Origin: Methanosarcinales archaeon
GTDB lineage: Archaea > Halobacteriota > Methanosarcinia > Methanosarcinales > Methanogasteraceae
DNA: 48,494 nucleotides
Assembly: GCA_004211975.1 (NCBI GenBank)
Contig: RXIK01000115.1
Span: forward strand, 1-48,494
Reading direction: 5' to 3'
Positions 2,586-41,260 of the stretch are shown piece after piece. Each line of letters opens with the position of its first letter. Position 1 is the first letter of the stretch. Under the pieces are notes generated by a model. It did not search any database. It was not told the DNA's origin and saw only the letters and a program-made list of their open reading frames with translations. Position numbers and translations under genes: made by a program.

Positions 2586-4709
2586 ATGAGAAAATGTACA
2601 ATATTAACAATGCTGCTTTGCATTGTCATGATCGGCTCGGCGGTGCCTGTATTGGCAGCGACGACAGAGGTGAACGTAACAAAGTATGCCTCGGATGAAA
2701 TAATGGTTTTGAACGAAACAACAGTAGCATACCGGTGGATGGAGACGAATCTGGCGGTGCAGGGTGATGGTGCAGCCGAGTATTTCCATCAGGGACCTGT
2801 ATTTGAGGGGGATCCCTGGGATCCGGCTGAAACCTTGAATATTAAGAGTAAGGGAATTGTGAAGGGAACCGATGTTAGGGACCTGTGTGATCTGGTTGGC
2901 GGGATGTCTCCGGGTGATGAGATCGGGATTATCGCATCGGATGGGTTCAGCAAGCGGTTTGGCTACGAAAATGTGTATGATCCGAAATCCCTGCAGGGAC
3001 CGATGGTTCTCTGCTGGTATAATGAGGGAACTTATGTTCCTGATTACGATGTGGGGATGCAGCTTGTCTTCTTCGCGGACGATTACACATTTGGCAATTG
3101 GGACATGCATGAATGCATGGCTCCGGAATACCGGTACAATTACAGTGGTGTTTCCCCATCCTCAAACGGACTATCAGTAAGGGATGTCTCGGATATAGCG
3201 ATATACAGCAATGAAACAGCAGAAACCGCGTGGAGTCTTGAACTTAGCGGGGCGATAGACGAGACAATGAGTAAAGCAGCGTTTGAGAAGGGCGTGGCTT
3301 GTCACGACGACTTTTCGTACACTGACTCTGAAGGTATGACCTGGACTGGTGTTCCGCTCTGGTACTTGTTGGCAAGAGTGGATGACACCGATGCTCATGG
3401 CAGCGGTTCGTTTAATGATGCGCTTGCAGGTGAGGGATACGACGTCATAATCACGGCGTGTGACGGATACAGTAAGACTTTCAGTTCAGTAGATCTGGCA
3501 AGAAACGATAGTTATATTGTTGCGTGTTACCTGAATGGCTCGGATCTGCCAGAGCTAACCGACAGTGGAAAGCCGCTGGCGCCGCTCAAGCTTGTTGGAT
3601 CCGGTCTTAGCAGCGGACAGATGATCGGGAACATCGCAGAGATCGTGCTGGATGTGGGGGCTGCCCCGGCTAAAGCAGATCTCACCCTGATTGGTAATGG
3701 GACAAAGACCTACAGCCTTGATGAGGTCAGGGCGATGCCATCATACGCCGCAGGCGGCGGATTTAAGAAATCAACAGGTGTGGTGGTTGGACCATTTAAT
3801 TATACTGGTGTTAACATCACGCATCTCGCGGATATTGTTGGCGGGATTGCGCCTTCGAACAGCATGAAGATAACAGCCTCGGATGGCTATTCGATGACCT
3901 ACACGTACGAGCAGGCGATGGGTGATATTGCCACGTACGAGGGAACCAACGGACCCATGACCATGGTCATAGCGTATGCGGAGGATGGAAATCCAATATT
4001 GTCTGATGGTGGTGGACCGCTCAGGATTGCTTTTGTGGGGTCTGATTCGCCAATTACCGATGGGCATTTCTGGTGCAAATACATAAATAAGATCGAGATT
4101 CTGGGCGGTGTTTCTGACTGGAATCTGACGCTGACAGGCGCAATCAGGGACATATCTGACCGATCAACGATTGAGTCCTGTGTGGGATGCCACAGAACCA
4201 GCTGGACCGATGGTAGCAGTCAGGAGTGGAGCGGGATACCGCTCTGGTTGCTTGTTGGTGTTGTGGACGATAGCATGAATGAGACCGCTAAACACTACTT
4301 TAACGACACGGTCGCAGACACCGGGTACAATGTGACCGTCGCAGCGGGCGATGGGTACTGCAAGACATTCAACAGCACAATTGTCACCCGCAACGATGAA
4401 CTCATCCTCGCAAATGAACTGAATGGAACAGCACTTCCGCAGGAGTGCTCGCCACTTAAACTCGTTGGACCTAATCTTACGAAGAGTGAGATGGTAAGCG
4501 GCGTTGCTGAGATGCGCATCCCTGAGTTGATGGTGCGTGGCGACGCCAACCATGATGGAGAACTCACGACTGCTGATGCGGTGCTTGCCATGCGGATGGC
4601 TGTTGGCAGTGTCAAGACCGATCTTGTGGCTGATATGAACAGGGATGGAGAGGTCACACCTGTGGACGTACTGATGATTTTGCAGACGGTGTACCTGCAG
4701 TCGAGTTAG
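2586..4709 (+). CDS. Secreted multidomain protein: repeated Moco-oxidoreductase-like (PF00174-like) domains, one CxxCH motif, C-terminal dockerin-like EF-hand pair
   Basis: Signal peptide MRKCTILTMLLCIVMIGSAVPVLA; repeated motifs VRDLCDLVGG...ASDGFSKRFGYENVYDP and SGVPLW; ESCVGCHRTSW; tail RGDANHDGELTTADAVLAM...ADMNRDGEVTPVDVLMIL. Confidence 0.8.
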   Translation: MRKCTILTMLLCIVMIGSAVPVLAATTEVNVTKYASDEIMVLNETTVAYRWMETNLAVQGDGAAEYFHQGPVFEGDPWDPAETLNIKSKGIVKGTDVRDLCDLVGGMSPGDEIGIIASDGFSKRFGYENVYDPKSLQGPMVLCWYNEGTYVPDYDVGMQLVFFADDYTFGNWDMHECMAPEYRYNYSGVSPSSNGLSVRDVSDIAIYSNETAETAWSLELSGAIDETMSKAAFEKGVACHDDFSYTDSEGMTWTGVPLWYLLARVDDTDAHGSGSFNDALAGEGYDVIITACDGYSKTFSSVDLARNDSYIVACYLNGSDLPELTDSGKPLAPLKLVGSGLSSGQMIGNIAEIVLDVGAAPAKADLTLIGNGTKTYSLDEVRAMPSYAAGGGFKKSTGVVVGPFNYTGVNITHLADIVGGIAPSNSMKITASDGYSMTYTYEQAMGDIATYEGTNGPMTMVIAYAEDGNPILSDGGGPLRIAFVGSDSPITDGHFWCKYINKIEILGGVSDWNLTLTGAIRDISDRSTIESCVGCHRTSWTDGSSQEWSGIPLWLLVGVVDDSMNETAKHYFNDTVADTGYNVTVAAGDGYCKTFNSTIVTRNDELILANELNGTALPQECSPLKLVGPNLTKSEMVSGVAEMRIPELMVRGDANHDGELTTADAVLAMRMAVGSVKTDLVADMNRDGEVTPVDVLMILQTVYLQSS

Positions 4710-4738
4710 AGGAGTTAAACGGGTCAGGAGCAACAGTG

Positions 4739-6202
4739 ATGAAACGAGCGACATTAGCAATACCGGTGCAGTTGATACTGTGCGGTATTGCGCTCCTGCT
4801 CTTAATCTTGATCTCAATGCTTCCGCTTCCAGCGCAGGCAGCAGAATCAACAACCAATGTCAAGGTGGTAAAGTACGCCTCTGATGGGACAACCGTTCTC
4901 GGGAACACGACTGTGACCTCCGGCTGGATGGAGGAGAATCTGCCGGTTTACGGGGATGGTGTTACGCATTACTTCCATCAGGGACCGATATTTGACTCGC
5001 CGCCCGGACCGTGGGATGAGAACGAGACCGTGAACTACAAGGACAAAGGTGCCGTAAAAGGAACCGATGTGAGAGACCTCTGTGATCTGGTCGGGGGCAT
5101 GTCAGACGGAGATGAGATAAAGATCCGAGCATCTGACGGTTTTAACAAGCGGTTTGGCTACGAGAATGTCTATGACCCGCCATCGGGACAAGGACCGATG
5201 GTTCTCTGCTGGTACAAAGATGGAACTTACGTTCCTGATTACGATGCTGGGATGCAGATCATCTTCTTTGCAGATGACCACATATTCGGCAACTGGGACA
5301 TGCACGAATGCATGGCTCCGGAATACCGGTATAATTACAGCAGCGAATATCCTTCCGCAAACGGATTGTCTGTACGGTTCATCTCCGATATAGTGGTGTA
5401 CAGCACGATGGAACCGCCGGAACTACGCTCAATTGAGGTTTCACCAGCCAGCGTGACGCTGGATATTGGTGGCAAGCAGCAGTTTGCAGGAACCGCTTAT
5501 GATCAATACGGAAAAGAGATTACAGGAATTACCTTAACATGGACAAGCAGCAGCGAAACTGTAGGGACTGTTGATGAAACCGGTTTATTTACCGTGATCG
5601 CTGCTGGCGGGACTGTGGTGACCGTAGAGAATGGTGGCATAACAGGAACAGCAGACGTGACTGTGAAGAGTCCGGCGGCAACACCTACGCCGACCCCAAC
5701 CCCCACCCCGGTCCTGACGACAATCACGGTCTCGCCGGCAAGGGCAACACTGAATGCCGGTGAGACACAGCAGTTCATGGCAGCCGCACGCGATCAGGAC
5801 GATCACGAGATCTCCAACATCGATTTTACGTGGACAAGCGAAAACAAGACCGTTGGAACGGTTAACCACGCAGGAATGTTCACTGCAACCGTATCTGGCA
5901 AGACAATGGTAGGAGCGGAGGCGGGAGGTATGACCGGAGTTGCGGACGCGATAGTGACAGGTCCGGAACCCGCACCAACCGAAACGCCAACCGCGGTAAT
6001 ACCGGCGCCGACACCAGCACCGGCTGAAACATCACCTGCATACGAAACACCCACTTCAAATACCCTGCCACCACCCACAACACCCCCCGCACTAAAAGCA
6101 ACGCCGGAATCAACAGGATTCGGGTCGCCCGGATCCGGGGGTATGCTTACGATCATAGGGATGCTGGCGGTGGCTTATGCAGTCAAGCGAAGGGGCGCGT
6201 GA
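4739..6202 (+). CDS. Secreted surface protein: Moco-oxidoreductase-like domain, two BIG2-like domains, Thr/Pro linker, PGF-CTERM-like anchor
   Basis: Paralog of upstream protein (GPMVLCWYKDGTYVPDYDAGMQIIFFADDHIFGNWDMHECMAPEYRYNYSS); ITVSPARATLNAGETQQF-type BIG2; PTPTPTPT linker; C-terminal TM then KRRGA. Confidence 0.8.
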   Translation: MKRATLAIPVQLILCGIALLLLILISMLPLPAQAAESTTNVKVVKYASDGTTVLGNTTVTSGWMEENLPVYGDGVTHYFHQGPIFDSPPGPWDENETVNYKDKGAVKGTDVRDLCDLVGGMSDGDEIKIRASDGFNKRFGYENVYDPPSGQGPMVLCWYKDGTYVPDYDAGMQIIFFADDHIFGNWDMHECMAPEYRYNYSSEYPSANGLSVRFISDIVVYSTMEPPELRSIEVSPASVTLDIGGKQQFAGTAYDQYGKEITGITLTWTSSSETVGTVDETGLFTVIAAGGTVVTVENGGITGTADVTVKSPAATPTPTPTPTPVLTTITVSPARATLNAGETQQFMAAARDQDDHEISNIDFTWTSENKTVGTVNHAGMFTATVSGKTMVGAEAGGMTGVADAIVTGPEPAPTETPTAVIPAPTPAPAETSPAYETPTSNTLPPPTTPPALKATPESTGFGSPGSGGMLTIIGMLAVAYAVKRRGA

Positions 6203-6275
6203 GTGGCTCTAAAACGCTCACTTAAAAATCATAATAAGAGAACTGAGAGGTCAGATAGCGCTCACAGAAATACGG

Positions 6276-6446
6276 ATGAAGATTGTTGAGTACATCCATG
6301 GGAATAGACAGATTATAACAGGAGAATCGGTAAAGATGTTTAATATTTCAAGGCATGTAGTTCTTAGAGCGTTATCCCGGCTCGCTCTGTTGGAAGTGAT
6401 CGAACCGGAAGGCAGGGTGCGAGGTGCTTATTATGCCGTCGCTTAG
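6276..6446 (+). CDS. Small winged-helix/MarR-like DNA-binding protein (56 aa), not in supplied ORF track
   Basis: MKIVEYIHGNRQIITGESVKMFNISRHVVLRALSRLALLEVIEPEGRVRGAYYAVA*; helix-turn-helix plus wing-like pattern; overlaps the start of the next gene. Confidence 0.45.
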   Translation: MKIVEYIHGNRQIITGESVKMFNISRHVVLRALSRLALLEVIEPEGRVRGAYYAVA

Positions 6447-7266
6447 TGGTTGTCATTCTGGTTGTCGTTTATCCGGACTCCGCCCCCTCAAACACACTCA
6501 AAGAACGCTTTCGCTCTTCCTGCTCCTGCTGCTGCTGTTCTGCGCAACATCACTTGCAGCCGGGCAGACTGAAGCGGTTCGCGTGGTGCTGTGTGCTGAG
6601 GACGGATCGGTCATGAACGAGACAACTGTAGCATATCAGTGGATGGAGGCGAATTTACCGGTTTATGGGGATGGAACAACGCATTATTATCATCAGGGAC
6701 CGGTTTTTGAGGGTGATAAATGGGATCGAAACGAAACAACAAATTTTAAGGATAAGGGTGCCGTGAAAGGAACTGATATCAGAGATCTCTGTGATCTGGT
6801 GGGCGGGGTTTCGCCGGGTGATGATGTCATGGTCCATGCAGTGGATGGTTATCATGTGGAGTTCTGCTATGAAAACGTTTATTCTCCGCAGCAACGGCAG
6901 GGACCGATGGTTCTCTGCTGGTATGATGGTGAGACTGGGTATCCGCCTGACTATTTCGCGGGGTTGCGCATTGTCTTCTTTGCAGATGATATGGTCTTTG
7001 GGAACTGGGACATGCATGAGTGCCTGCCTCTGAAGAGCCAGCATTTCTTCGGAGACCTTAAGCCATCGACGGGCGGGCTTTCGGTGAGATGGGTTGATGA
7101 GATTGGGATATATGCGGGTGGGTACACGGGCGAGCATGGGGGTCCGGCAAAGTCGATGCCCACGCAGACACCGGGATCAAGTCAGGCGCCTGGTTTTGGA
7201 GCTGTGTCCGCAACCACTGGGTTGTTGTTGGTCGCGTTCATCTTGAGGTGGGGGAGGGTGCGATGA
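6424..7266 (+). CDS. Secreted Moco-oxidoreductase-like fold protein with PGF-CTERM anchor
   Basis: Same conserved core (GTDIRDLCDLVGGVSPGD...GPMVLCWYDGE...FFADDMVFGNWDMHEC); C-terminus SQAPGFGAVSATTGLLLVAFILRWGRVR. The true start may be an internal Met. Confidence 0.8.
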   Translation: MLIMPSLSGCHSGCRLSGLRPLKHTQRTLSLFLLLLLLFCATSLAAGQTEAVRVVLCAEDGSVMNETTVAYQWMEANLPVYGDGTTHYYHQGPVFEGDKWDRNETTNFKDKGAVKGTDIRDLCDLVGGVSPGDDVMVHAVDGYHVEFCYENVYSPQQRQGPMVLCWYDGETGYPPDYFAGLRIVFFADDMVFGNWDMHECLPLKSQHFFGDLKPSTGGLSVRWVDEIGIYAGGYTGEHGGPAKSMPTQTPGSSQAPGFGAVSATTGLLLVAFILRWGRVR

Positions 7267-7811
7267 AACCCCCAATTCCAATTCTTATTATGTGCATCGT
7301 TGCAATCGCTGCAACTGCATGTCTGCACCCATCCGGAACTGAGGATGAGATGATCGAGTGCAACCTGACATTGGTTGGTGATTGCACGCGGGTGCTCTCG
7401 TATGATGAGATCCGTGCGATTCCGTCCTGTGAGGGGCGCGGTGGATTCTTCACGACCGTTGGCATCGTAAACGGACCGTTTGAATGCAGAGGAGTTTCTT
7501 TGGAAGAGCTGTGTGACCTTGTTGGTGGAATCAACGCAACCGACACCGTGTGGATACGTGCGTCTGACGGATACCTGATGGTCTTCAACCGCGATCAGGT
7601 CCGGGGTGATTTTATCACCTACAATCCTGTGACGATGAGGGAGGTTCCGCACATCGAGCCTGAGGTGATGCTGATGTATGAGCAGGACGGGGGTTTGCTT
7701 TCCATGGATACGGGCGGACCGCTCAGGGTTGCCATCGTTTCAAGGGGCGAACTCTTAACAGAAGGGCATTACTGGGTTCAGTGGGTGGACACAATCGAGA
7801 TTATGAAATGA
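7263..7811 (+). CDS. Lipoprotein with Moco-oxidoreductase-like fold
   Basis: MKPPIPILIMCIVAIAATAC lipobox-like signal; LVGGINATDTVWIRASDGYLMVFNRDQVRGDFITY...GGPLRVAIV similar to domain 3 of the 2586 protein. Confidence 0.75.
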   Translation: MKPPIPILIMCIVAIAATACLHPSGTEDEMIECNLTLVGDCTRVLSYDEIRAIPSCEGRGGFFTTVGIVNGPFECRGVSLEELCDLVGGINATDTVWIRASDGYLMVFNRDQVRGDFITYNPVTMREVPHIEPEVMLMYEQDGGLLSMDTGGPLRVAIVSRGELLTEGHYWVQWVDTIEIMK

Positions 7812-8842
7812 AAGCAACACCAATAGTGGTTCTGGTATTAATCATCGCTGTGATTGTTGCAGCCATATTCCTGCCAGACACTACTGAGAAAACAGAACTG
7901 CTGGTTGTCCATGCGGGAAGTCTGATCATACCCTTTGCAGAGATGGAAAAACAGTTTGAAAGCCAGAATCCGGGTGTTGATGTGCGGATGGAAGGGCACG
8001 GCAGCATCCAGGCGATCAGGCAGGTGACAGATATCCACCGACAGGTGGACGTGCTCGTGGTTGCAGATGAAAACCTGATTCCCGACATGATGTATCCTGC
8101 ATACGCGGACTGGCACGTGCGGTTTGCAACAAACCGGATGGTGCTTGCGTACACTAACAGGAGCAGATACGCAGGTGTGATCAACGGCTCAAACTGGCAC
8201 GAGATTCTTATGCGCCCTGAGGTCACGTTTGGATTCTCAAACCCCATGCTTGATGCATGTGGGTACAGAACGCTGATGGTGGCACAACTGGCTGAATCAT
8301 ACTATGGTAATCAGACGATCTTCCGGAACCTGATCGCATGCAATTTCAACCCCACATTCTCTGTTGTTAGGGATGGCGACACCGCAACCGTGGTTGTGCC
8401 CGAGATACTTGATCCGCGAGCAAAAAAAGTTGTTATCAGGGGTGGAAGCGTGCAGCTCCTGGCGCTACTTGAGCTTGGGGAGATTGACTACATCTTCGAG
8501 TACCGTAGCGTTTCAGAGCAGCATGGACTGCGGTTTGTTAAGCTGCCCCCCGAAATTGACTTGAGCACCCCTGATAACGAGGCTATGTATGAGAATGTCG
8601 GCGTTGATCTTGGATTTCGGCGTTTCACATCGGTTGGAACCAGACGAACCGGCAAACCAATCTTTTATGCGATAACAATCCCAAAAGACGCCCCACACCC
8701 CAAACTTGCTATGGAGTTTATGGAGTTTGTGACAAGCGAAGAAGGACGGAGAGTGCTTCAGGCGATGGGGCAGCCCACCGTTCCTCCGATTGCGGATAAT
8801 CCGGATAAGATGCCTGCTGGGCTGAGAGGCGCGGACGAATAA
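7808..8842 (+). CDS. wtpA: Tungstate/molybdate ABC-type solute-binding protein (WtpA/ModA-like), apparently TM-anchored
   Basis: LLVVHAGSLIIPFAEMEKQFESQNPGVDVRMEGHGSIQAIRQVTD...VDVLVVADENLIPDMM...ATNRMVLAYTNRS...FGFSNPMLDACGYRTLMV: typical WtpA pattern. ATGA overlap with upstream gene. Confidence 0.85.
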   Translation: MKATPIVVLVLIIAVIVAAIFLPDTTEKTELLVVHAGSLIIPFAEMEKQFESQNPGVDVRMEGHGSIQAIRQVTDIHRQVDVLVVADENLIPDMMYPAYADWHVRFATNRMVLAYTNRSRYAGVINGSNWHEILMRPEVTFGFSNPMLDACGYRTLMVAQLAESYYGNQTIFRNLIACNFNPTFSVVRDGDTATVVVPEILDPRAKKVVIRGGSVQLLALLELGEIDYIFEYRSVSEQHGLRFVKLPPEIDLSTPDNEAMYENVGVDLGFRRFTSVGTRRTGKPIFYAITIPKDAPHPKLAMEFMEFVTSEEGRRVLQAMGQPTVPPIADNPDKMPAGLRGADE

Positions 8843-9146: not shown

Positions 9147-10445
9147 TTACAGCCGGATGATCCGCGACGGGTTCTCAAGACTGAGCATAACAAGAAGATA
9201 ATCCTTAAGATGCCTTGTTATCAGGAAATTGTTTCTGACATGCTCTCGCCCGTTCTCCCCAAGTTTTCGGGCGAGTTCCGGATCCTTCAGGAGATTTGCG
9301 ATCTTGTATGCTGCACCCTCAACTGAGTGCACAAGGTAACCTGTGACGCCGTTGATGACCTGCAAGGGGATTCCGCCGGTTGCTCCGCCGATCACGGGCT
9401 TTCCCTTCCATAGCCCCTCGGAGACCACAAGCCCGAATCCTTCTTTCAGCGATTTCTGCATGATTACGGTGGACGCACGCTGAAACGCGTTGATATCGAT
9501 GTCAGAGAATGGCGGTGATCCGAGTAGCAGGTGGATGTCATCCTCGCCTTCTGCTTTCTTTAAGACTTCCTGGTAGACCTCCATTCCCTCCGGGTCGTCT
9601 GCTGCAACGCCTCCCGCGAGTATTAGCTGACAGTCTATCCGCTTTTTCACCAGTTTGTATGCATCAATAACTCCGGGAAGGTCTTTTAATCGGTCAAACC
9701 GTGATATTTGCGTTATGATCGGTTTATCGGTGACAATCTCGTATTTATCAAGGACTGTATCGATCTCGCCCTGTGTAAGCTCGATGTTCTTGTCGCTCAG
9801 CGGATCAATGGAAGGTGGCACAAGGAACTGCCTGATCCCGAGGTCAGGTCTTGAGAACAGCGGTGTTGAGAAGATCGATGCATCATATTTTGAGACAAAA
9901 TCCCTGAGAAAGTTCCAGACAAGCGGCTCAGGGTTTGAAACGTCGATGTGGCATCTCCATATCCAGTGTCCCTTCTCTTTTGTGCGTATTAGTGCTGCTG
10001 GCTGGGGGTCGTGCATGAATACAAAGTCCCCGTCGTTGTTCATCTCACTGGCATTCACATCACTCCAGTGCATATAGGTCTCAAGCATCCGTTTCTTCGT
10101 GTTTAGATCCTTGATCTGCGCATCGAGATCATCCATCACGCTGACCTGCTCATGTGCCTGAACATCAACCGGACCGCCTACTCTACCGTGAAGCTGGTTG
10201 TGGAAGCTTTTTGTGACTGCAAAGAACTCATCGTCGCCCCGTATCAGGTTCCATTCCGTTTCAATGTCAAGCCCCTTAAACAGCGGGACCAACCTATTCA
10301 GAATCTCTGCCACGCCTCCGCCCGCGTAAGTGGAATTGACGTGCTGAACCTTGCCTGAGATGTTTCCTGCAAGCAGTTCAAGGTCCTCGAGAAGACCTCT
10401 TCCAACAATATCCTCATAATCCCAGACCGATCTCTTTTTGTTCAT
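9147..10445 (-). CDS. treT: Trehalose synthase TreT-like glycosyltransferase (GT4)
   Basis: VQHVNSTYAGGGVAEILNRLVPLFKGLDIETEWNLIRGDDEFF...; KEGFGLVVSEGLWKGKPVIGGATGGIPLQVINGVTGYLV. Confidence 0.85.
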   Translation of the reverse strand: MNKKRSVWDYEDIVGRGLLEDLELLAGNISGKVQHVNSTYAGGGVAEILNRLVPLFKGLDIETEWNLIRGDDEFFAVTKSFHNQLHGRVGGPVDVQAHEQVSVMDDLDAQIKDLNTKKRMLETYMHWSDVNASEMNNDGDFVFMHDPQPAALIRTKEKGHWIWRCHIDVSNPEPLVWNFLRDFVSKYDASIFSTPLFSRPDLGIRQFLVPPSIDPLSDKNIELTQGEIDTVLDKYEIVTDKPIITQISRFDRLKDLPGVIDAYKLVKKRIDCQLILAGGVAADDPEGMEVYQEVLKKAEGEDDIHLLLGSPPFSDIDINAFQRASTVIMQKSLKEGFGLVVSEGLWKGKPVIGGATGGIPLQVINGVTGYLVHSVEGAAYKIANLLKDPELARKLGENGREHVRNNFLITRHLKDYLLVMLSLENPSRIIRL

Positions 10446-11092
10446 AGCTGCTCCCAGAAATGTTTCTCGATGATCTTAACGATCTCGATTCTCATGGCAT
10501 TTATGTTTGCGAAACCATACGGGCAGATCGCATTCAGCTTCTCCATCAGCTCATAGCTGTTATTCTCAGTTACCCATCGTGAAAACGCTTTGTAATGCTC
10601 TCCACCAAGCATTCGGCTTGCAATAAAATAATAGAAGATTGAGTCAAGGTCAATAACTTTCAGGACCTCCAGCGCCTCACCGATATTTGATGCAAAATGC
10701 CTTGTTGGGAAGATGACGCTGATACTCTTGATGAAATGGAATTCCTGCCCGACTCCAGCCATGCCGCTCACGTCATTCATGTTAACATAGTCCTCGAGGA
10801 TATTCACAATCCTTGCCCTGAGCGCGTCCAGATCATGGATCTCGCGCAGGTCAGGGTCTGCAAGTCGCTCGGCAAGAGCAGGCTCGTGCAGCACGTCAGC
10901 GATCCAGTATGCAAAGTCGTTTGGATACTCCATCGGGAGAAAATGGTAATCCAGCAGCGCATGGTATATGTGGTGGAAGATCGAACTTTCATCCACGGTT
11001 TTCATGGCTGAAATCAACTCGGAAATATCTCGTGCGCTCTTTCCAGTAAGTTCGGATTGGTATCTTGCCTTATAGAATGTGAAATCTGACAT
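10442..11092 (-). CDS. DUF5752-like helical protein linked to trehalose genes
   Basis: 216 aa, FYKARYQSELTGKSARDISELISAMKTVDESSIFHHIYHALLDYHFLPMEYPNDFAYW; overlaps treT by 4 nt. Family assignment from memory. Confidence 0.6.
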   Translation of the reverse strand: MSDFTFYKARYQSELTGKSARDISELISAMKTVDESSIFHHIYHALLDYHFLPMEYPNDFAYWIADVLHEPALAERLADPDLREIHDLDALRARIVNILEDYVNMNDVSGMAGVGQEFHFIKSISVIFPTRHFASNIGEALEVLKVIDLDSIFYYFIASRMLGGEHYKAFSRWVTENNSYELMEKLNAICPYGFANINAMRIEIVKIIEKHFWEQL

Positions 11093-11100
11093 TTTGCCCC

Positions 11101-12456
11101 CTAATGTGTGAAGTCGGTCATAACATCATCGAATACATCTGTTATTAATTTTACACCTTCTTCTATATAACATTGTCTTGCAGTCTCATGTCCTCGCTCG
11201 CCCAGCTCTTCTGAATCAGCCGGGTTTTTAAGGATCGTGTTAATCTTCTCTGCAAGTTCTTCGTGGTTTCCCGACTCGAATCGGTACCCGTTCACGCCAT
11301 CCATCACCAGTTCGGAGACGCCCGCCCCGTCGCTCACGACCACCGGTTTCCGGTACATCCATGCCTCCAACACAACCAGACCAAATCCTTCTTTGCGGGA
11401 CGGGAAGACCAGCGCATCACAACGCTTGTACGCCGCTTTCACGATGTTATTCGGGATATATCCGGTGAATATAACTCGGTCTGCCACTCCAAAGTCTCTC
11501 GCAAGCTTTTTTAAGTATGTACCCCACATCGTCGCCTTTGGATGTGCCAAACCGCCTCGATCGCTACTTGTGAAGCTACCATTTCCTATAAGTATCAACT
11601 TTGCATCAGCAATCTGTGAGAGTGCTTTGATCGCAACATCCTGACCTTTTATTTGATCCATCCGGGCTACAATCACGAGGAGCTTGTCATCATCTGTTAT
11701 CCCAAAACGGTCGCAAAACTCGTCAAACTCCCTGTCTGATGGCTCGGTCCACTCGTACTGGTTGATATAGGGGTATGCCTGATATGCTCTGCCATTGTAT
11801 CCTGCTCGTATCAAACCCTCAAGATCGCGCCTGCAACTGACGATGACCCCGTCAAACGACTCGATGCACCGGACAATGAACCGCCTGACATAGCTTGATG
11901 TGTTGTCCAGATCAAACGGGATGTGCCACCTGAAAACCGTTGGTGCAGCAAGCCCGAGCATGCCCCCGACAAGCAACTGCTGAAAATCATGGATATAGAA
12001 AATATCGATCGGTGACAGCTCAAACATCTTCTCCGCACAAAGCCAGTTATACCTTGCGTATGCAGAGAACTCAACCACACCAATCGGTTTTCGGTCGATA
12101 TTGTGAATATCCGCCCATATTCGCTCCTTAAATCGGGAATATGGCGCGACATACTTCTGCTCAAGCACGATGTTATGGATGAGTATATCATCAACAAGCA
12201 CGCGCTCAGGTCCCATCATGTTAAGTGATATCCAGTGCACACTCTCCACCAGATTCTTCTCAATCAACATCCTTTGCAGCGGGTAAACCATCTTCGGAAC
12301 CCCGCCCGGGGTAAACTCGTAATCTTCCCCCTCTTCAAGGCACGTAAACGGCACCGGATCAGGAAGCGAACCATATTTATCAAGTAACTCGCTGTACTGG
12401 AGTTTAAGCCTGATCAGCGGCGTTTGCGTAGCCAAACATACTTTTGGTTGGGTCAT
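11101..12456 (-). CDS. GT4 glycosyltransferase, second TreT-like paralog
   Basis: FVSSR-type donor site ...DALVFPSRKEGFGLVVLEAWMYRKPVVVSDGAGVSELVMDGVNGYRF; internal Met (MTQPKVCLAT) preferred over 12492 to leave room for the promoter. Confidence 0.8.
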   Translation of the reverse strand: MTQPKVCLATQTPLIRLKLQYSELLDKYGSLPDPVPFTCLEEGEDYEFTPGGVPKMVYPLQRMLIEKNLVESVHWISLNMMGPERVLVDDILIHNIVLEQKYVAPYSRFKERIWADIHNIDRKPIGVVEFSAYARYNWLCAEKMFELSPIDIFYIHDFQQLLVGGMLGLAAPTVFRWHIPFDLDNTSSYVRRFIVRCIESFDGVIVSCRRDLEGLIRAGYNGRAYQAYPYINQYEWTEPSDREFDEFCDRFGITDDDKLLVIVARMDQIKGQDVAIKALSQIADAKLILIGNGSFTSSDRGGLAHPKATMWGTYLKKLARDFGVADRVIFTGYIPNNIVKAAYKRCDALVFPSRKEGFGLVVLEAWMYRKPVVVSDGAGVSELVMDGVNGYRFESGNHEELAEKINTILKNPADSEELGERGHETARQCYIEEGVKLITDVFDDVMTDFTH

Positions 12457-12648
12457 GCTTTTCTCGTGAAAGTGTACATGCGCGATATACACACGTCACG
12501 TATCACATATAATACCTGCCCATGCATGCATTACATACGTGACTCTCACACAAAACACCGCGAAGATCGATAAGGCATGGGAAGATCGATAGAGTAATAA
12601 ACGACTAAAATGATATAGGATGTACGGTAGTACAGAGGGAGTCAACTC

Positions 12649-13695
12649 ATGAAAATTGCAATAGTAGCGCCACCATGGATCAAGATTCCTCCAGCGCGTT
12701 ATGGGGGTATAGAGGCGGTTATAGCTCTGCTCGCAGATGGACTCGCCAAAAGAGGGCATGACGTGACACTGTTCACAGTCCTTGAGTCTGTGTCAGATGC
12801 TCATGTCCGCCACTTCTTTGAACACGAACAGTGCAGCCTCCTGGCAGGACAGACATCAATATTTCTGAATGCCGCGATCACGCACTCGCTTGGATCATAT
12901 ATTGAGATCGCAGATCAGGGCAACTTTGATATAATACATGACAACACCTGGAAAGAGGGTCTGGCAAGTGCATTCTTCATAGACCTCCCGGTTGTGCACA
13001 CACTCCACAGCCCGCTTGACGAGTCAAATAAACATTTTTACGAGCTGTTTGTTGGCAGAAAAGATATTCATTTCACAACGATCAGCGACTTCCAGCAGAC
13101 CGTCCTGCCAGGTCTTAACTATGCCGGAACCGTCTATAACTCGATCGAAATAGAGAGTTACCCATATTCTGAGGAGAAAGAGGACTACCTGTTGTACTTA
13201 AGCAGATTCAACCATGAGAAAGCACCACACATCGCATGCGAGGCTGCGAAACGTCTTGGAATGCGACTGATTCTGGCAGGTAAGGTATCAGAGCCTGACG
13301 AACACGAATACTTTGATACAATGATAAAGCCGTATCTGAACGATAAGATCAAGTACGCCGGCGAAGTCAGCGATAAGGAAAAAAAGAGTTTGTTTGCGGG
13401 TGCAACTGCTTTTGTCTACCCGCTCCAGTGGGAAGAGCCGTTCGGGATTGTTATGATCGAGGCAATGGCATGCGGCACACCCGTCGTAACCTATAAACGT
13501 GGCGCTGCACCTGAACTGGTTGAAAACGGAGTGAACGGCTATCTAGCAGATGATTTTGAGGATCTTCTTGATTGTATCGGGAAAGTGCAGGATATCAAGT
13601 CTAAACAATGCCGGGAATACGTGGAGAAACATTTCAGCGTGGATGCAATGGTTAATGGCTATGAGCAAGTCTACAGGCAGATTCTAAAAGGTTAA
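12649..13695 (+). CDS. GT4 glycosyltransferase
   Basis: MKIAIVAPPWIKIPPARYGGIEAVIALLADGLAKRGHDVTLFT...WEEPFGIVMIEAMACGTPVVTYKRGAAPELVENGVNGYL; divergent from 11101 gene. Confidence 0.9.
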   Translation: MKIAIVAPPWIKIPPARYGGIEAVIALLADGLAKRGHDVTLFTVLESVSDAHVRHFFEHEQCSLLAGQTSIFLNAAITHSLGSYIEIADQGNFDIIHDNTWKEGLASAFFIDLPVVHTLHSPLDESNKHFYELFVGRKDIHFTTISDFQQTVLPGLNYAGTVYNSIEIESYPYSEEKEDYLLYLSRFNHEKAPHIACEAAKRLGMRLILAGKVSEPDEHEYFDTMIKPYLNDKIKYAGEVSDKEKKSLFAGATAFVYPLQWEEPFGIVMIEAMACGTPVVTYKRGAAPELVENGVNGYLADDFEDLLDCIGKVQDIKSKQCREYVEKHFSVDAMVNGYEQVYRQILKG

Positions 13696-13708
13696 GGAGA
13701 GGTGAACA

Positions 13709-16063
13709 ATGGTATCAGACGATGAATGGCTAATTCAGGAACGTGGTTTTAATCCTGACCGACAAGCCAAATATGAATCTGTTTTTTCGTTTGGAAACGG
13801 TTATATGGGTAGCCGCGCTGTCCTTGAAGAGCTGCCCGCCGGCAGCAGTCAGGGAACATACGTCGCAGGGATCTTTGATAAATCAGAGGCTGAAACAGTT
13901 GAGATCGTGAATCTACCGGATCCCGTGGGTCTTCGGCTATATGCAGACGGAGAACCGATCGCAATAGATCAGATGGACGTGACCGGGTACGATCGCACCC
14001 TCGACATAAGATGCGGAACGCTTGCCCGCAGAACCAGCTATCAATCAAAGAAGGGCGGGCTATATGAGTATGAGTATTGGTCGCTTCGTGCATTCAGTGC
14101 GGCTGATGAGCACATCATGCTGATGCGAGTTTATTTCATCGCTGTGGACTCAGACGTTGATATCCTCGTGGAAAACAGCATTGATGGATCAACGCTGAAC
14201 ATAAGGAAGGAAATGGGCACCAGGATTGCGCACTACAGCGTTGTGGAAGCTGACCATGCAGACGATGTCGGTTGTCTGGTTGCAAAATTAAATGATTCCG
14301 GACGCAGTGTTGCTTATGCGGCAAATCTCTCGATAGGGACTGGCAGCAATGATAACGAGGTGGTTGACGGCGTTGTTCGCACATCTGAGTTTGCCGACGG
14401 AAAACTAACCGAAAGCGTGCGATTTAAAGCCCGCAAAGGAACGCTCTACACCTTCAAAAAGATCGTCTCAATATATACCTCACGCGACGTTCCGCCGGGA
14501 GATACCCGCAATATCCGTGATGTGGCGGTTGATGCCCTGAAACAGAGTCTGAAAACAGGCTTTGACAGAATGCTTACAGCACACACAGATGCCCGGGATA
14601 AAATGTGGTCTATGTCAGATATTGTGATTGACGGCGATCCCGATGCAACAAAAGCATTACGGTTCAACCTGCATCATCTGATGATGGCAGGCAGCAGATC
14701 CGATGATCAGGTCAGCATAGCACCCAAAGCACTGACCAGTAGCTGGTACAACGGGCATTTCTTCTGGGACACCGAGCTTTTCGTGCTCCCCTTCTTTACA
14801 TTCACCTATCCTGCTATTGCAAGAAATCTGCTGATGTACCGGTATCACCGGCTGGATGAAGCCCGGAAAAATGCAAGAAAACAGAATCTATCCGGCGCAC
14901 TCTTTCCATGGGAGTCAGCAGAGACTGGAGAAGAGGTCACTCCAAAAACATGGGTGAATCCGGAAGGAACAATCATCGACGTGCATACAATGGAGCGTGA
15001 GCACCATATCACAGGCGACGTCGCGTATGCCGTGTACCAGTACTACAGGGCAACGGCTGATACCGAGTTCCTGCTGGATTATGGAGCTGAGATCATCCTC
15101 GAAACCGCTCGGTTCTGGGCGGGCAGGGTAACATATAACAATACTTCCGGAAAATACGATATAAAAGACGTGATCGGTCCAAACGAGTATCAGGAGTGCG
15201 TTGATAACAATGCATACACCAATTACCTTGCCAGATGGAATCTGCGGTGTGGCATCATGCTGTACACCGAAATTCTCAAGAGGTATCCTGACAAACGAAC
15301 AATCCTCTGCGAAAAAATTGGTCTGAAGCAGTTGGAGATCGATGAATGGCGGAAGATCGCAGACAACATCGAATTTACAGTTCTCGATAACGGGATGATC
15401 GAGGAGTTCTCAGGATACTTTGAAAAGCTTAATGTGACGATTGAGAAGTGGAACGAACGCGGAATGCCAATATTTCCGGATGCAGTGCCGCTTGAGCGCG
15501 CGCACGAGTCGCAACTGGTGAAACAGGCAGATGTAGTACTGTTGCTGCACCTATTTAACGAAGACTTCACGCATAACGTGAAAACAGTGAACCTGGACTA
15601 TTATGACCACAGGACTACTCATGAGTCCTCGCTCAGCCCAAGCATATACACGATCCTGTGCACGGAAGCCGGAGAGGTGGATCGGGCATATAAATACCTC
15701 AAACACTCATTATACGGTGATCTTTCTGACAACTATGGCAATGTGAAGCACGGCATTCATGCAGCCTCGCTCGGAGGCGTCTGGCAGGCAGTGGTCTTCG
15801 GGTTTGCCGGCGTACGTATGAAAAGTGGCAATGGTAAAACCAGCGAAATACTCGCTGTGAACCCGAGATTACCGGAAAACTGGACGCATCTTCAGTTTAA
15901 CCTGTGCTGGCAGGGGTTCAAGCTCGAACTTGACATATCAGCAGGCAACGTGGGCATATTCTTTGAATCAGCAGGTGATGGCGTCACGGTTCCCGTTGAC
16001 ATAGAGGGCGTGTCGTACGAGATCCCCGGAAACAAGAGGACGGTGATAACGTATGGCGATTGA
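13709..16063 (+). CDS. GH65 family glycoside phosphorylase (trehalose/kojibiose phosphorylase-like)
   Basis: ESVFSFGNGYMGSRAVLEE...GHFFWDTELFVLPFFTFTYPAIARNLLMYRYHRLDEARKNA...GAEIILETARFWAGR...VIGPNEYQECVDNNAYTNYLARWNL. Confidence 0.92.
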   Translation: MVSDDEWLIQERGFNPDRQAKYESVFSFGNGYMGSRAVLEELPAGSSQGTYVAGIFDKSEAETVEIVNLPDPVGLRLYADGEPIAIDQMDVTGYDRTLDIRCGTLARRTSYQSKKGGLYEYEYWSLRAFSAADEHIMLMRVYFIAVDSDVDILVENSIDGSTLNIRKEMGTRIAHYSVVEADHADDVGCLVAKLNDSGRSVAYAANLSIGTGSNDNEVVDGVVRTSEFADGKLTESVRFKARKGTLYTFKKIVSIYTSRDVPPGDTRNIRDVAVDALKQSLKTGFDRMLTAHTDARDKMWSMSDIVIDGDPDATKALRFNLHHLMMAGSRSDDQVSIAPKALTSSWYNGHFFWDTELFVLPFFTFTYPAIARNLLMYRYHRLDEARKNARKQNLSGALFPWESAETGEEVTPKTWVNPEGTIIDVHTMEREHHITGDVAYAVYQYYRATADTEFLLDYGAEIILETARFWAGRVTYNNTSGKYDIKDVIGPNEYQECVDNNAYTNYLARWNLRCGIMLYTEILKRYPDKRTILCEKIGLKQLEIDEWRKIADNIEFTVLDNGMIEEFSGYFEKLNVTIEKWNERGMPIFPDAVPLERAHESQLVKQADVVLLLHLFNEDFTHNVKTVNLDYYDHRTTHESSLSPSIYTILCTEAGEVDRAYKYLKHSLYGDLSDNYGNVKHGIHAASLGGVWQAVVFGFAGVRMKSGNGKTSEILAVNPRLPENWTHLQFNLCWQGFKLELDISAGNVGIFFESAGDGVTVPVDIEGVSYEIPGNKRTVITYGD

Positions 16064-16826
16064 TTTTGAAAGCGAGGTTGGTTTTATCTGGGATGTTGAT
16101 GGAGTCATCGTCGACAGCCCCCATGAAATGGCATGGCGGCTCACCGTGGAGATGGCGCCGTGGAGTGTTGATGTGGGTAGGCTTGATTCAGGATTCTACC
16201 ATGATCATGTCTCCGGGCGACCCAGATATGAGGGCGGAAACGAGATTCTTGATCGTTTAGGGGTGTATGAGCGGCTCGGCGCAGAAACAGACGATGCGAA
16301 AGAGGAGATGCTTGAACAATACTGCACCCGCAAGAACAAACTGTTCACAGAACTGGTTGGCAAGGGCAAATTCAAGGTCTTTGAGACATCGGTTGCGATG
16401 ATCATTGAAGCGCATACCCGGGGGGTGTACCAGGCGATGGCATCAGCCTCAAAGAATGCAAAAAACCTGATCACCATGATAACCGGCGAACACATATCCG
16501 GAATACCTGATACGCTTTACTCACTCTTTGAAGTGGACGCATCAGGACTATCTGGAAAAAGCAAGCCAGAACTATTTGCGTTTGCGGCAAACAAGATGCA
16601 GGAGTTATCCGGTGGCAGGATCAAGCATTACATCGTGTTTGAGGATGCGCCGTCCGGGATAGAGGCTGGTAAAGAGAACGATATGTTTTGCGTTGGGATA
16701 CGGAGGATCGGGGATCGATCCACCCTCACCAGAGCTGGTGCGGATATCGTGGTCGATGATCTTGGTGAACTGAGTTATGATGCGCTGAGATCACAGTTTA
16801 TAGGGGCGAGACATCAGGCAGTATGA
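16053..16826 (+). CDS. HAD hydrolase, beta-phosphoglucomutase-like
   Basis: GFIWDVDGVIVDSPHEMAWR (DxD motif); KSKPELF; FEDAPSGIEAGKENDMFCVGIRR; overlaps the GH65 gene end. Confidence 0.85.
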   Translation: MAIDFESEVGFIWDVDGVIVDSPHEMAWRLTVEMAPWSVDVGRLDSGFYHDHVSGRPRYEGGNEILDRLGVYERLGAETDDAKEEMLEQYCTRKNKLFTELVGKGKFKVFETSVAMIIEAHTRGVYQAMASASKNAKNLITMITGEHISGIPDTLYSLFEVDASGLSGKSKPELFAFAANKMQELSGGRIKHYIVFEDAPSGIEAGKENDMFCVGIRRIGDRSTLTRAGADIVVDDLGELSYDALRSQFIGARHQAV

Positions 16827-28121: not shown

Positions 28122-29255
28122 TTATTCTCCCATGCCAATAACTATGGTCTTATTGTATAGTTCAATATATGTATCTCCGGTTGAAGCAATTTCGCCCAAA
28201 CTTAACAACCCAAATAGAAAGACATCACTTCCTGCTTTGTTTGCGATGATGTTTAACTCATCATTAATTTTGTCTTCTAAAAACAAGGCTCTGACAAGAC
28301 AGTCCACAATTAGCGCTTTGCCCGGGGCTATCTTCTTTTTGCTTTCAAAAGCAATTTTAGCTTGTTCGGCAGCTATTCCTGCGGCTGCTATTAATTTATC
28401 AGGGTGCGCTTTCGTAACCACCAGCACAGAGTTTTCAGGCATTTCACTGGCAAATACAAGGCTGTTGTCTTCATTAACACTTATAGGAACACGCAGAATG
28501 ATCTCAGTATCATATTTCAGGATTCCAAGCGGATATGATTTAGCCACATCAAGAAAACCATCTGCAGTTAACTTGATGCCGGCATCTTGCTCAACGATAT
28601 TTTTGTAATATTCAAAGGCAGGTCCCCAGTTAATTGATTTTAAAATATTTTTATTCACGCTGCTGGCAATAGCAGGGTCAGAAATAGGCTGACAACCATG
28701 GTTTATTCCCACTGACATGAAGTCTTGAGCAGCAGCGATAATAGCCCCTCCCGCGAAGATGCAATCACGCGAAAACAGAGATGGCCGATCAACATTTATA
28801 ACACTTCCAGCACTGCCCCCGATAAACGCCATTTCCCTGAAAAATTTTTCGTATAATGTCTCTATAAGCAGCGGAATATTGTCTGTGTATGCACTGGTAA
28901 AGATCAGAAGGGTCCGGGTATTTTTCGAGACAAAATCTTCCGGGAAGTCGCCTTTGAATGTGCTTAGATCTTTAATCACTTCAATTGAGACCGGGGACTT
29001 AAAGGCGCAACCCACCACCCCCTGCGTATACAGCGAGCCGTCATAGATCACTTCAGGGAAAATACCTCCCCATACCTCAATATCCATCGTTTTTAGTAGA
29101 GGTTGTAGTTGTTTGTAATCAAACGGCGTTTCTTCTCCAACAAACAAGAGAATGCCTTTAGCATTGTCGTTACTTAGTTCCTTCAGGAATGGCTGCCATC
29201 CTTCCGGTTCTCGCCCATCATAGAACTTTACTTTTTGAAACATAATCTTCCCCAT
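28122..29255 (-). CDS. FIST-domain sensory protein
   Basis: Pattern KGILLFVGEETPFDYKQLQPLLKTM...GGIFPEVIYDGSLYTQGVVGCAF...FIGGSAGS...FLFGLLSLGEIASTGDTYIELYNKTIVIGMG is FIST_N/FIST_C-like. Confidence 0.8.
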   Translation of the reverse strand: MGKIMFQKVKFYDGREPEGWQPFLKELSNDNAKGILLFVGEETPFDYKQLQPLLKTMDIEVWGGIFPEVIYDGSLYTQGVVGCAFKSPVSIEVIKDLSTFKGDFPEDFVSKNTRTLLIFTSAYTDNIPLLIETLYEKFFREMAFIGGSAGSVINVDRPSLFSRDCIFAGGAIIAAAQDFMSVGINHGCQPISDPAIASSVNKNILKSINWGPAFEYYKNIVEQDAGIKLTADGFLDVAKSYPLGILKYDTEIILRVPISVNEDNSLVFASEMPENSVLVVTKAHPDKLIAAAGIAAEQAKIAFESKKKIAPGKALIVDCLVRALFLEDKINDELNIIANKAGSDVFLFGLLSLGEIASTGDTYIELYNKTIVIGMGE

Positions 29256-38161: not shown

Positions 38162-39190
38162 ATGAACAAGAACATAACAATAATGACGCTTGCCGCGATC
38201 CTTTTGATAGGGTCCGCTGGCATGGCGTGTGCGCATTTCACGATGGTCTTTCCGAGCGACAGTGAGGCTACCGTGTGGGATGTGACACCTGAGGACTACA
38301 TAGCAACGATGGGCGAGACAAAGACCGTGTATATGATGTGGGGACACCCCTACGAGCATATACTCTTTAGCATGGCGTCTGCGCCTGAGGTCTCTGTCAT
38401 GAAGCCTGACGGAACCATCGAGCCGCTCACACCGACAGAAATCACGGTCAGCGGACAGGGCGAGGACGGAAATCCTGGAGATTTTAAGGGTTACAAAGCA
38501 TCGTTCACCGTTGATCAGCCTGGCGATTCTGTTGTCTTCGTGAAATACGAGGATGATGGCGAGAATTTGATTGACTACACCAAGGCAGTGATCCACTGCG
38601 GTGAAGAGGCATGGGTTGGCTGGGATTCCGAAGTAGAGCAGCAGACCGAGGTCATTCCATACATGCGACCTTACGGGATGGAGGCTGGTTTTGTCTTTGG
38701 CGGAAAGGCACTTTACAATGGTGAGGCTCTCGCAGGCGCACCTGTAGAAATCGAGATATACCACACACTTGATCTTGGTAATGAGATCGTGGGGCTCGCA
38801 GAGGAGATGTTCGAATACGACCCTCCAATGGTATTCACACGACTCACCAAGTCCAACGACAACGGCGAATTTGTGTACACGCTCGATGAGCCCGGAATAT
38901 GGTTTGTTGGCGCAACAATGGAACCGGAAAGTGAGTCCGAGCGAAACGTGAGAGGCGTCTTCATCGTCCCGATACTTGAGCCGTTCCCACCAGTGGAAGC
39001 ATCTTCAGGAACATCCATATCATCTTCAGAACTGACAAAGGCAGTAGATGATGCAAAGGCAGCAGCAGCCGAGGCAAAAACGGCGGCAGAGCGTGCAGCA
39101 TCATCTGCAACATCTTCGCCAGGATTTGGAGCGATCTTTGTAGCAGTCGGGCTGCTTGCAGCGATTGCACTTTTGATGCGGCGGAAGTAA
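38162..39190 (+). CDS. nikK: NikK-like DUF4198 periplasmic/surface protein with PGF-CTERM anchor
   Basis: AHFTMVFPSDSEATVWDVTPEDYIA...MMWGHPYEHILF; C-term SSPGFGAIFVAVGLLAAIALLMRRK; first gene of ECF operon. Confidence 0.75.
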   Translation: MNKNITIMTLAAILLIGSAGMACAHFTMVFPSDSEATVWDVTPEDYIATMGETKTVYMMWGHPYEHILFSMASAPEVSVMKPDGTIEPLTPTEITVSGQGEDGNPGDFKGYKASFTVDQPGDSVVFVKYEDDGENLIDYTKAVIHCGEEAWVGWDSEVEQQTEVIPYMRPYGMEAGFVFGGKALYNGEALAGAPVEIEIYHTLDLGNEIVGLAEEMFEYDPPMVFTRLTKSNDNGEFVYTLDEPGIWFVGATMEPESESERNVRGVFIVPILEPFPPVEASSGTSISSSELTKAVDDAKAAAAEAKTAAERAASSATSSPGFGAIFVAVGLLAAIALLMRRK

Positions 39191-39316
39191 CGAGACTGTA
39201 ACCGATAAACCGGGTGGATCAACAGGGGTTTTAGAACCCCTGCCACTCATTTATAATGGTGAACTATATAGTTGGTCCGTTGAAATATGTTCCATGGTGG
39301 TGTTGAAGTGAAACCA

Positions 39317-39802
39317 ATGAAAAGACTGAATATAATGCTCTTACTTGTCCTGTGCATAGTACTCGTGTGCCCGGTTGCATCAGCGCACAGGGTGGTCGTG
39401 CAGGGCTATGTGAACGAGATCACGGTCAAGGCATATTACGGTGGGGGAGGCATGGACCCCATGGCTTATGCGGACGTCGAGATCTACGCAATCAAGGACG
39501 GGCAGAAAGATGAATTGTACATCACAGGCGAGACAGATGAGGATGGCATGTACTATTTTACACCGAAGATTGGCATATCCAAGTACAACGTAGAAGTTTC
39601 ATCTCTGGGACATAGAGGCAACGAGACTGTGAACCTTGCAGAAGGTGCAGGACTCTCAGACGCAGAGCAGAAAGAAGCAGAAGATGAGGCACAGCTGCCG
39701 CTCATGGAAATGATCGCTGGATTCGGGTATCTAACAGGACTTATCGGGGTATCAATGATCCTCACAGCCCGGAAGATGAAGAAACAACATGAAAACAAGT
39801 AA
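39317..39802 (+). CDS. nikL: NikL-like accessory membrane protein
   Basis: Signal peptide, carboxypeptidase-regulatory-like beta domain (VEIYAIKDGQKDELYITGETDEDGMYYFTPK), C-terminal TM; between nikK and nikM. Confidence 0.7.
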   Translation: MKRLNIMLLLVLCIVLVCPVASAHRVVVQGYVNEITVKAYYGGGGMDPMAYADVEIYAIKDGQKDELYITGETDEDGMYYFTPKIGISKYNVEVSSLGHRGNETVNLAEGAGLSDAEQKEAEDEAQLPLMEMIAGFGYLTGLIGVSMILTARKMKKQHENK

Positions 39803-39815
39803 CAGGAGGGAATAA

Positions 39816-40433
39816 ATGGTACACATATCAGACGGGGTTCTTGCGGAGTGGTTATGGGGTGGCGGCTGGGCGGTAACAGCCATAATCCTTGCGTATGCAC
39901 TCTCAAAAATGAAGACCGAGGATGTGCCACGACTTTCAGTCATCACAGCCGCGGTCTTTGTCTCATCACTCATCCACCTGTCAATTGGACCCACGAGTGT
40001 TCACTTCATATTAAACGGCTTTGCAGGCGTGATGCTCGGGATACTTGCGTATCCATGCATCTTTGTGGCGCTTGTCCTGCAGTGTTTCCTTTTCGGGCAT
40101 GGCGGAGTTACAACAATCGGGATCAACACCGTCAACATGGGCGTTCCCGCACTCGTTGCATACCTGATATTCAGAGCCGGAACCGGTCTTGACATCCGAC
40201 CGGAAACAAAGAGTGTGGCATCGCTGTTTGGCGCGATCGCAGGAGGGGTGGGTGTAGTGCTTGCGCTCCTGTTTCTTGCGGTGGAACTGATCACAACCGG
40301 CGAAGAGTTCATTGAGACAACGGTGCTTGTCATGAGCACGCACGTCCCGATCATCGCAGTCGAGGCGATCTTCACCGGAGTGATTGTCGGGTTCATCGCA
40401 ACAGTCGAACCTGAACTGTTCGGGAAGAAGTGA
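39816..40433 (+). CDS. nikM: CbiM/NikM ECF substrate-binding component
   Basis: MVHISDGVLAEWLWGGGW...IHLSIGPTSVHFILNGFAGVMLGILAYPCIFVALVLQCFLFGHGGVTTIGINTVNMGVPA. Confidence 0.92.
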   Translation: MVHISDGVLAEWLWGGGWAVTAIILAYALSKMKTEDVPRLSVITAAVFVSSLIHLSIGPTSVHFILNGFAGVMLGILAYPCIFVALVLQCFLFGHGGVTTIGINTVNMGVPALVAYLIFRAGTGLDIRPETKSVASLFGAIAGGVGVVLALLFLAVELITTGEEFIETTVLVMSTHVPIIAVEAIFTGVIVGFIATVEPELFGKK

Positions 40434-40459
40434 TACGAGCGATATGGTAGTGATCCGGC

Positions 40460-41260
40460 ATGATTTCAGAGATCGATAGATATGCAAGTCTTTCCTCACC
40501 GATTCACCGGTGGGACCCACGTTTCAGGCTTGTATCAATCTTCACGCTGATATTCTCAGTCGTGCTTCTTTATAACCTGCAACTGGTCATAATCGGCATG
40601 ATATTCGCAGTTATTCTGACCTGCACATCAAAAATACCGTTTTCCTTCGTTCTCGCCCGCATGAAACTGGTATTCATCTTTGTGATACCATTCTTCATCA
40701 TTATCCCGTTCACAATCATAGGGACCGGGGTCGAGATAGCAAGCTTCAGCGGAATCACGCTGAGTTACAGAGGGATCGAATACGTCCTGTTCGCAGCGAT
40801 GATTGTGCTAAAAGCTCTCACCGCCGTGATGCTGATCTTCCCGATGATTGGCACATCCCGGATGGACATCACGATCAAGGCACTTGAGGGTCTGCACCTG
40901 CCAAACAAGCTGGTCCAGATGTTCGCATTCACATACAGGTACATCTTTGTGCTGGATGATGAATTCATGCGGACAGATCGTGCGCTTGCAGCAAGAGGAT
41001 TTAAAAAACGAGGCAACATGTACACACTCACAACAGTCAGCAAGGCGATTGCGATGCTCTTTGTGAAGAGCTACGAACGAGCGGACCGCGTATTCTATGC
41101 GATGCGATCGAAGGGTTACACAGGAACAATCGCCACACTCCATGAATTTCACGCAAGAAAACAGGACTGGGTCAACACAGCAGTCGTCATCGGGTTCGCG
41201 CTTCTTTTGCAGGTAGCAGCAACATCTGACACGTTCATCGCAACAAGAGGTTTTATATGA
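40460..41260 (+). CDS. nikQ: CbiQ/NikQ ECF transmembrane (T) component
   Basis: HRWDPRFRLVSIFTLIF...YRYIFVLDDEFMRTDRALAARGFKKR...YERADRVFYAMRSKGYTG. Confidence 0.9.
   Translation: MISEIDRYASLSSPIHRWDPRFRLVSIFTLIFSVVLLYNLQLVIIGMIFAVILTCTSKIPFSFVLARMKLVFIFVIPFFIIIPFTIIGTGVEIASFSGITLSYRGIEYVLFAAMIVLKALTAVMLIFPMIGTSRMDITIKALEGLHLPNKLVQMFAFTYRYIFVLDDEFMRTDRALAARGFKKRGNMYTLTTVSKAIAMLFVKSYERADRVFYAMRSKGYTGTIATLHEFHARKQDWVNTAVVIGFALLLQVAATSDTFIATRGFI

Follow-up and report, generated by a model that had tools for sequence, protein, structure and literature searches.

A mainly archaeal gene block joins surface proteins of the sulfite-oxidase fold to a variant WtpA and may serve molybdenum or tungsten capture

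In this work we analysed a block of five consecutive plus-strand open reading frames (ORFs), P1 to P5, at positions 2586-8842 of a 48,494-nucleotide stretch of DNA from a Methanosarcinales archaeon of the family Methanogasteraceae (contig RXIK01000115.1 of assembly GCA_004211975.1; the whole stretch is called the window below). The block joins exported proteins built from three kinds of domain of the sulfite-oxidase (SUOX) fold, which we call N, D and L, to a variant of the tungstate-binding protein WtpA, and the link between L and WtpA is real: the two genes stand side by side in nearly all the relatives that carry them, among methanogens, ANME-related archaea and two lineages of bacteria. 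Based on what was observed—the domains, their fold, the gene order, the co-occurrence across genomes, the separate clade and altered pocket of WtpA, and the presence of WtpB and WtpC downstream in many relatives—we give about an even chance to a role of the block in extracellular capture and relay of molybdenum or tungsten (Mo/W), as an oxyanion or bound to a pterin, coupled to an ATP-binding cassette (ABC) importer of the WtpABC type. We found no description of such a block in the open-access literature that we searched, subscription papers and preprints lying outside that search.

Conservation and architecture of the block

Relatives were collected by a search seeded with the N domain alone, which yielded 69 loci spread over Methanosarcinales, Methanophagales and Methanomicrobiales, together with a few records labelled bacterial. 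Forty-four separate L genes leave enough sequence downstream to judge what comes next; WtpA follows 42 of them, in 41 cases with the GHGS motif also seen in P5, and N lies just upstream of L in 39 of the 44, some of the exceptions being artefacts of ORF calling. The same order recurs in nine further genomes, where L adjoins WtpA in all nine with N beside them (at locus L171 an antisense ORF is called over one N), and in those genomes in which WtpA was sought too, one stands immediately downstream of each full-length L. Carriers that can be cultured include Methanoculleus sp. FWC-SCC1, Methanocalculus chunghsingensis and Methanogenium marinum (loci L026, L034 and L075/L076). Among 199 sampled genomes of the phylum, 24 have a strong N, 24 a strong L and 23 both; within the window's own class the distribution is patchy (15 of 240 genomes). 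Two of the bacterial records, from Peptococcaceae (L048) and Dehalococcoidia (L049), look genuine, and the large protein of the former bears SLH domains. The records labelled Omnitrophota (L024) and Clostridiaceae (L027) are likely misbinned contigs and were treated as such because they fall inside archaeal clades of the WtpA tree. An earlier note, made from the letters of the window, had proposed that a surface cluster is coupled here to a tungstate/molybdate-type binding protein and had named absence from relatives as grounds for giving the idea up; the block is instead widely conserved, and both gene order and co-occurrence bear the coupling out.

P1 (2586-4709) is a secreted protein of 707 residues with four SUOX-fold domains in the order N-D-L-D and a C-terminal dockerin-like domain. 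Its N domain lies at 2655-3209 (residues 24-208; 294 bits), the first D domain, with the Cys and His conserved in D domains, at 3228-3644 (residues 215-353), the L domain, a homologue of the lipoprotein P4, at 3678-4100 (residues 365-505; 137 bits), the second D domain at 4116-4511 (residues 511-642), and the Dockerin_1-like domain at 4539-4679 (residues 652-698), which at 23.1 bits barely exceeds its cut-off of 22.9. P2 (4736-6202) combines an N domain (4847-5404; 302 bits) with two Big_2 stretches (57.6 bits), a Thr/Pro linker and a PGF-CTERM signal, and P3 (6424-7266) an N domain (6565-7113; 315 bits) with PGF-CTERM, this signal scoring 19.0 in P2 and 21.5 in P3 against a cut-off of 18.8. 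P4 (7248-7811), whose true start is likely at 7263, is a lipoprotein with a lipobox-like ATAC at 7311-7322 and one L domain (7362-7802). P5 (7808-8842) is a WtpA of a cluster-specific clade, with GHGS, a Ser at the Glu218 column and the Asp153 column kept; it passes both NCBIfam equivalog models for WtpA (373 bits against a cut-off of 355, and 357.8 against 242.75). In a Pfam scan, PF00174 stood above its cut-off for P1 and for P4 (27.3 bits), and no NEAT domain was matched in the proteins of the block. A candidate gene for a winged helix-turn-helix protein between P2 and P3 (6234-6446), overlapping the annotated start of P3, was dropped at a Pfam E value of 0.04; outside the same locus its frame is matched in relatives over 19 residues alone.

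The N domain, of about 185-190 residues, is common to P1, P2 and P3, with identities of 54-73% across some 190 residues (BLAST E 1e-79 to 1e-103), a likeness that, judged by sequence, is far beyond chance, and P4 is closest to the third domain of P1, that is, to L (40% identity, E 1e-40). Where the earlier note counted four paralogs, the block holds seven SUOX-fold domains, four of them in P1. The core that these proteins were said to share is complete, through FGNWDMHEC, in P1, P2 and P3; P4 has the LCDLVGG...ASDGY part alone. The dockerin-like domain, Big_2, Thr/Pro linker, PGF-CTERM and lipobox had all been listed correctly, the dockerin-like domain being weak, and a surface location is upheld by signal peptides, PGF-CTERM, the lipobox, the dockerin-like domain and, in one relative, SLH.

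Fold of the surface domains and the missing cysteine

Searching the PDB by sequence alone gave nothing significant for N (best match 1vhk, E 0.35) and, for P2, immunoglobulin-like proteins alone, through Big_2. The fold was settled by comparison of profiles and structures. In profile comparisons with hhalign, L matched SUOX proteins at a probability of 99.1, D matched them at 98.4, and N matched L at 98.6. For the N domain of P3, AlphaFold2 produced from 61 sequences a model with a mean predicted local distance difference test score (pLDDT) of 93.8. The best PDB matches of this model were the pterin-binding PruR structures 7kom, 7rkb, 7kou and 7kos, with a Foldseek probability of 1.00, followed by the MsrP/YedY structure 1xdy; template modelling (TM) scores were moderate, at 0.56-0.65 by target. 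The model of P1 likewise found PruR first and sulfite oxidases next, although its mean pLDDT of 83 and predicted TM score of 0.44 make the packing between its domains unreliable. With 7kom, 7rkb, 7kos, 7kou and 7kp2 as the best matches overall, the models place N and P1 in the SUOX fold, with pterin-binding PruR as the nearest solved structures. The assignment to a molybdenum cofactor (Moco) oxidoreductase fold in the earlier note therefore stands, and the unrelated fold that it named as the opposite outcome did not appear.

The check for the catalytic cysteine proposed at the same time gave a divided answer. Alignments and profile comparisons detected no conserved Cys in L domains at the position that ligates Mo in SUOX proteins, and N does not align across that position; the Cys of DLCDLVGG, found in N and L, comes later, beyond the W-x-G region. 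Most D domains carry a Cys and a His, the Cys offset from its position in the enzymes, and may or may not bind Mo. Because the Mo-ligating Cys is absent from them, N and L are probably binding domains and not redox enzymes. PruR proteins, which bind pterins, likewise do without this Cys (PMC13259868).

The variant WtpA, its transporter and its neighbours

The nearest solved structures to P5 are the archaeal WtpA/ModA proteins MA_0280 and AF_0094. In a tree of 81 WtpA rows, 46 from the cluster (including a few copies of one another) and 35 others, all 46 cluster rows fall on one side of a branch with support 100/99. Octahedral coordination of tungstate by WtpA is described as relying on one Glu and one Asp (PMC4139814). 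Numbering pocket columns by AF residues, we find Ser at column 218 in 46 of 46 cluster rows and Q, Y, F or V at column 220, so that an acid at 218 and/or 220 occurs in none of the 46 cluster rows as against 35 of 35 others. Which column holds the tungstate-ligating Glu depends on the AF numbering used, and neither candidate column is acidic in the cluster. Asp153 is kept in every cluster row (46/46), Met, Leu or Arg replaces Asn151, Ala or Ser replaces Pro154, and His stands at column 68 in 46 of 46 cluster rows versus 2 of 35 others. The Asp and Glu carboxylate pair for octahedral tungstate coordination is thus lacking in cluster WtpA, which may have changed its ligand or its mode of coordination. 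Two stronger statements were dropped: Glu218 is not strictly conserved in ordinary WtpA, where 16 of 35 rows have Ser, which is why we speak of the loss of an acid at 218 and 220 together, and the His of GHGS also occurs outside the cluster clade, in the two other rows just mentioned. Among ordinary WtpAs, Glu218 is paired with Ile235 (19/17 rows) about as often as Ser218 with Glu235 (16/17 rows), hinting at two canonical pocket types.

The earlier note had also remarked that P5 lacks neighbouring permease and ATPase genes, which is true of the window; in relatives with enough downstream sequence, WtpB follows WtpA in 13 of 35. Two WtpB-WtpC pairs tested match tungstate models best, with three of the four proteins, both WtpBs included, scoring below the equivalog cut-off. 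The genome of the window has a second, canonical WtpA (contig C241) and two permeases, one on contig C233 that groups with cluster-type WtpBs (54-55% identity) and one on contig C166 that groups with canonical WtpBs (69% identity). It also has a second WtpC on contig C129 (locus L179; 434 bits), about as close to the cluster WtpC of L021 (53%) as to a canonical one (52%); this WtpC-type ATPase lies directly downstream of a gene for formylmethanofuran dehydrogenase subunit B. Because a cluster-type WtpB is present on C233 of the same genome, the permease of the window's system has most likely moved rather than been lost, and the gap beside P5 reflects a rearrangement at this locus that does not characterise the system.

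Around the block in relatives, a metallophosphoesterase family is a neighbour in 25 of the 69 loci, and at L014:7831-9549 an N domain is fused to a metallophosphoesterase resembling purple acid phosphatases. Other neighbours are MobB and DUF364 (L019), an aldehyde:ferredoxin oxidoreductase (L014), a MOT1-type molybdate transporter (4 loci), a protein of the amino-acid-kinase family (8 loci) and canonical Wtp genes; these genes hint at Mo/W metabolism.

Elsewhere in the window, 38162-42189 holds another operon for metal uptake, which encodes a secreted DUF4198 protein with PGF-CTERM, a 171-residue protein, CbiM and, judged by sequence, proteins like CbiQ and CbiO; here, too, a surface protein adjoins a metal transporter. 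At 9147-16826 lies a carbohydrate cluster with a TreT-like glycosyltransferase, a DUF5752 protein, GT4 glycosyltransferases, a GH65 phosphorylase-like protein and a HAD hydrolase, and at 28122-29255 a FIST-domain protein adjoins large proteins resembling sensor kinases.

Proposed function and known systems

Under the capture-and-relay proposal, surface-anchored N/D/L proteins, held by dockerin or PGF-CTERM (or, in one relative, SLH), would bind the cargo, the membrane lipoprotein with its single L domain would receive it from them and hand it to the adjacent WtpA variant, and this WtpA would dock on WtpB and WtpC for import. Cargo binding by N, D and L, the nature of the cargo and the direction in which it is handed on are inferences here. 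Of the functions offered in the earlier note, sequestration of an oxyanion or of a pterin is still a possibility, with gene context favouring binding that is tied to import, and surface redox chemistry has less in its favour, given the missing Mo-ligating Cys of N and L and the ambiguous case of D. Several observations weigh against capture and relay. The pocket of cluster WtpA is unlike that of true tungstate binders, so that its ligand may not be simple tungstate. WtpB and WtpC do not adjoin the block in the window, and an adjacent WtpB is absent in 22 of 35 relatives as well. No residue of a PruR-type pterin pocket (Trp160 and Tyr104 in A. tumefaciens numbering) was mapped, the alignments to PDB sequences having missed the Trp160 region. 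Moreover, a structural role in the S-layer is conceivable for P2 and P3, the frequent metallophosphoesterase neighbour has no explained role, and the Mo/W genes near the block are scattered and may be there by chance.

The strongest alternative, which we regard as possible though clearly less probable than capture and relay, is the sensing or scavenging of pterins or Moco: N and L would be archaeal PruR-like binders of a pterin, which might be molybdopterin or derive from methanopterin, while the WtpA variant would act as a sensor or bind a pterin-metal complex and not the bare oxyanion. PruR as the top Foldseek match of N and P1, the PruR-like lack of the Mo-ligating Cys in N and L (PMC13259868) and the remodelled WtpA pocket are all consistent with this, and the purple-acid-phosphatase-like phosphoesterase found in many loci could trim a phosphate or pyrophosphate from the cofactor; however, the pterin contact residues are unmapped, no partner gene of the PruR type was recognised among the recurrent neighbours, and the downstream WtpB and WtpC indicate import over signalling. 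A different alternative looks to the D domains, which would carry Moco or its tungsten form for redox reactions outside the cell, while the transporter would provide the metal. Among 114 copies of D, Cys is present in 93% and His in 95% just before the W-x-G motif, the segment where SUOX enzymes carry their Mo-ligating Cys, and D resembles SUOX proteins in its profile (98.4, as above). We nevertheless hold this to be improbable: in the profile alignment the D Cys does not superpose on the SUOX Cys, being about 3-4 residues too far from W-x-G, a Pfam search matched no Mo-co dimerisation domain in P1, the Cys is missing from N and L, no partner for electron transfer could be made out, and the cofactor would have to be exported. 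It is just as doubtful that these are structural or adhesive surface proteins using a dead SUOX fold as scaffold, with WtpA kept nearby for independent reasons. Big_2, dockerin, Thr/Pro linkers, CARDB and SLH are indeed typical of surface scaffolds and the largest repeat protein reaches 2200 residues, but a tight N-L-WtpA order kept across orders of archaea and in two bacterial lineages, together with a WtpA clade specific to the cluster, would be difficult to account for unless these genes share a function.

We speculate, with little confidence, on a more specific form of capture and relay, in which surface SUOX-fold domains would take up Mo/W as a pterin-bound cofactor, or other complex, released by other cells, and the lipoprotein would relay it to a re-tooled WtpABC importer. 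If true, this would be a previously undescribed class of uptake, by which methane-cycling archaea scavenge cofactor or metal from outside the cell. These archaea need Mo or W for their formylmethanofuran and formate dehydrogenases, and both metals are scarce in sulfidic sediments. With a dedicated system for capturing Mo/W or their cofactor, a large surface family that goes by sequence only as molybdopterin-binding oxidoreductases would gain a function; the block would also be a testable case of SUOX-fold domains as receptors instead of enzymes, and an example of a WtpA with a rebuilt ligand site.

The block resembles several known systems in part. P5 passes the WtpA equivalog models and relatives have adjoining WtpB and WtpC, as in WtpABC; however, its WtpA forms a separate clade with GHGS and no acid on the Glu218 strand, both WtpBs tested fall below the equivalog cut-off, and SUOX-fold surface proteins and a lipoprotein are added. 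With PruR, a periplasmic pterin-binding protein of Proteobacteria with a SUOX-like fold, the block shares the fold, export and, in N and L, the missing Cys. It differs in consisting of multi-domain surface proteins, mainly archaeal, in the length of its N domain (about 190 residues compared to 134-149 in solved PruR chains) and in gene context, Wtp transporter genes taking the place of the DcpA-type regulators of cyclic di-GMP or kinase regulators of PruR; no DcpA- or DTB-type regulator was identified among the recurrent neighbour clusters, although the search of neighbours for GGDEF or kinase domains was not exhaustive. Sulfite oxidase and MsrP (YedY) share their fold with the block, and their profile can be recognised in it (PF00174 for L), whereas N and L lack their Mo-ligating Cys, the Cys and His of D are slightly displaced and no dimerisation domain was found. 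Dockerin-bearing binding proteins of ABC transporters have been noted earlier in anaerobic methanotrophic archaea (PMC9012536). In the way it works, the block would compare with the NEAT/Isd haem relay, in which repeated paralogous surface binding domains pass their cargo to a lipoprotein and on to an ABC importer (for transfer by NEAT domains, PMC4684392). The block is not a member of the NEAT family, its fold being unrelated and its cargo presumably different, and its own relay is a proposal, so that the two systems would be alike in how they work, not in descent.

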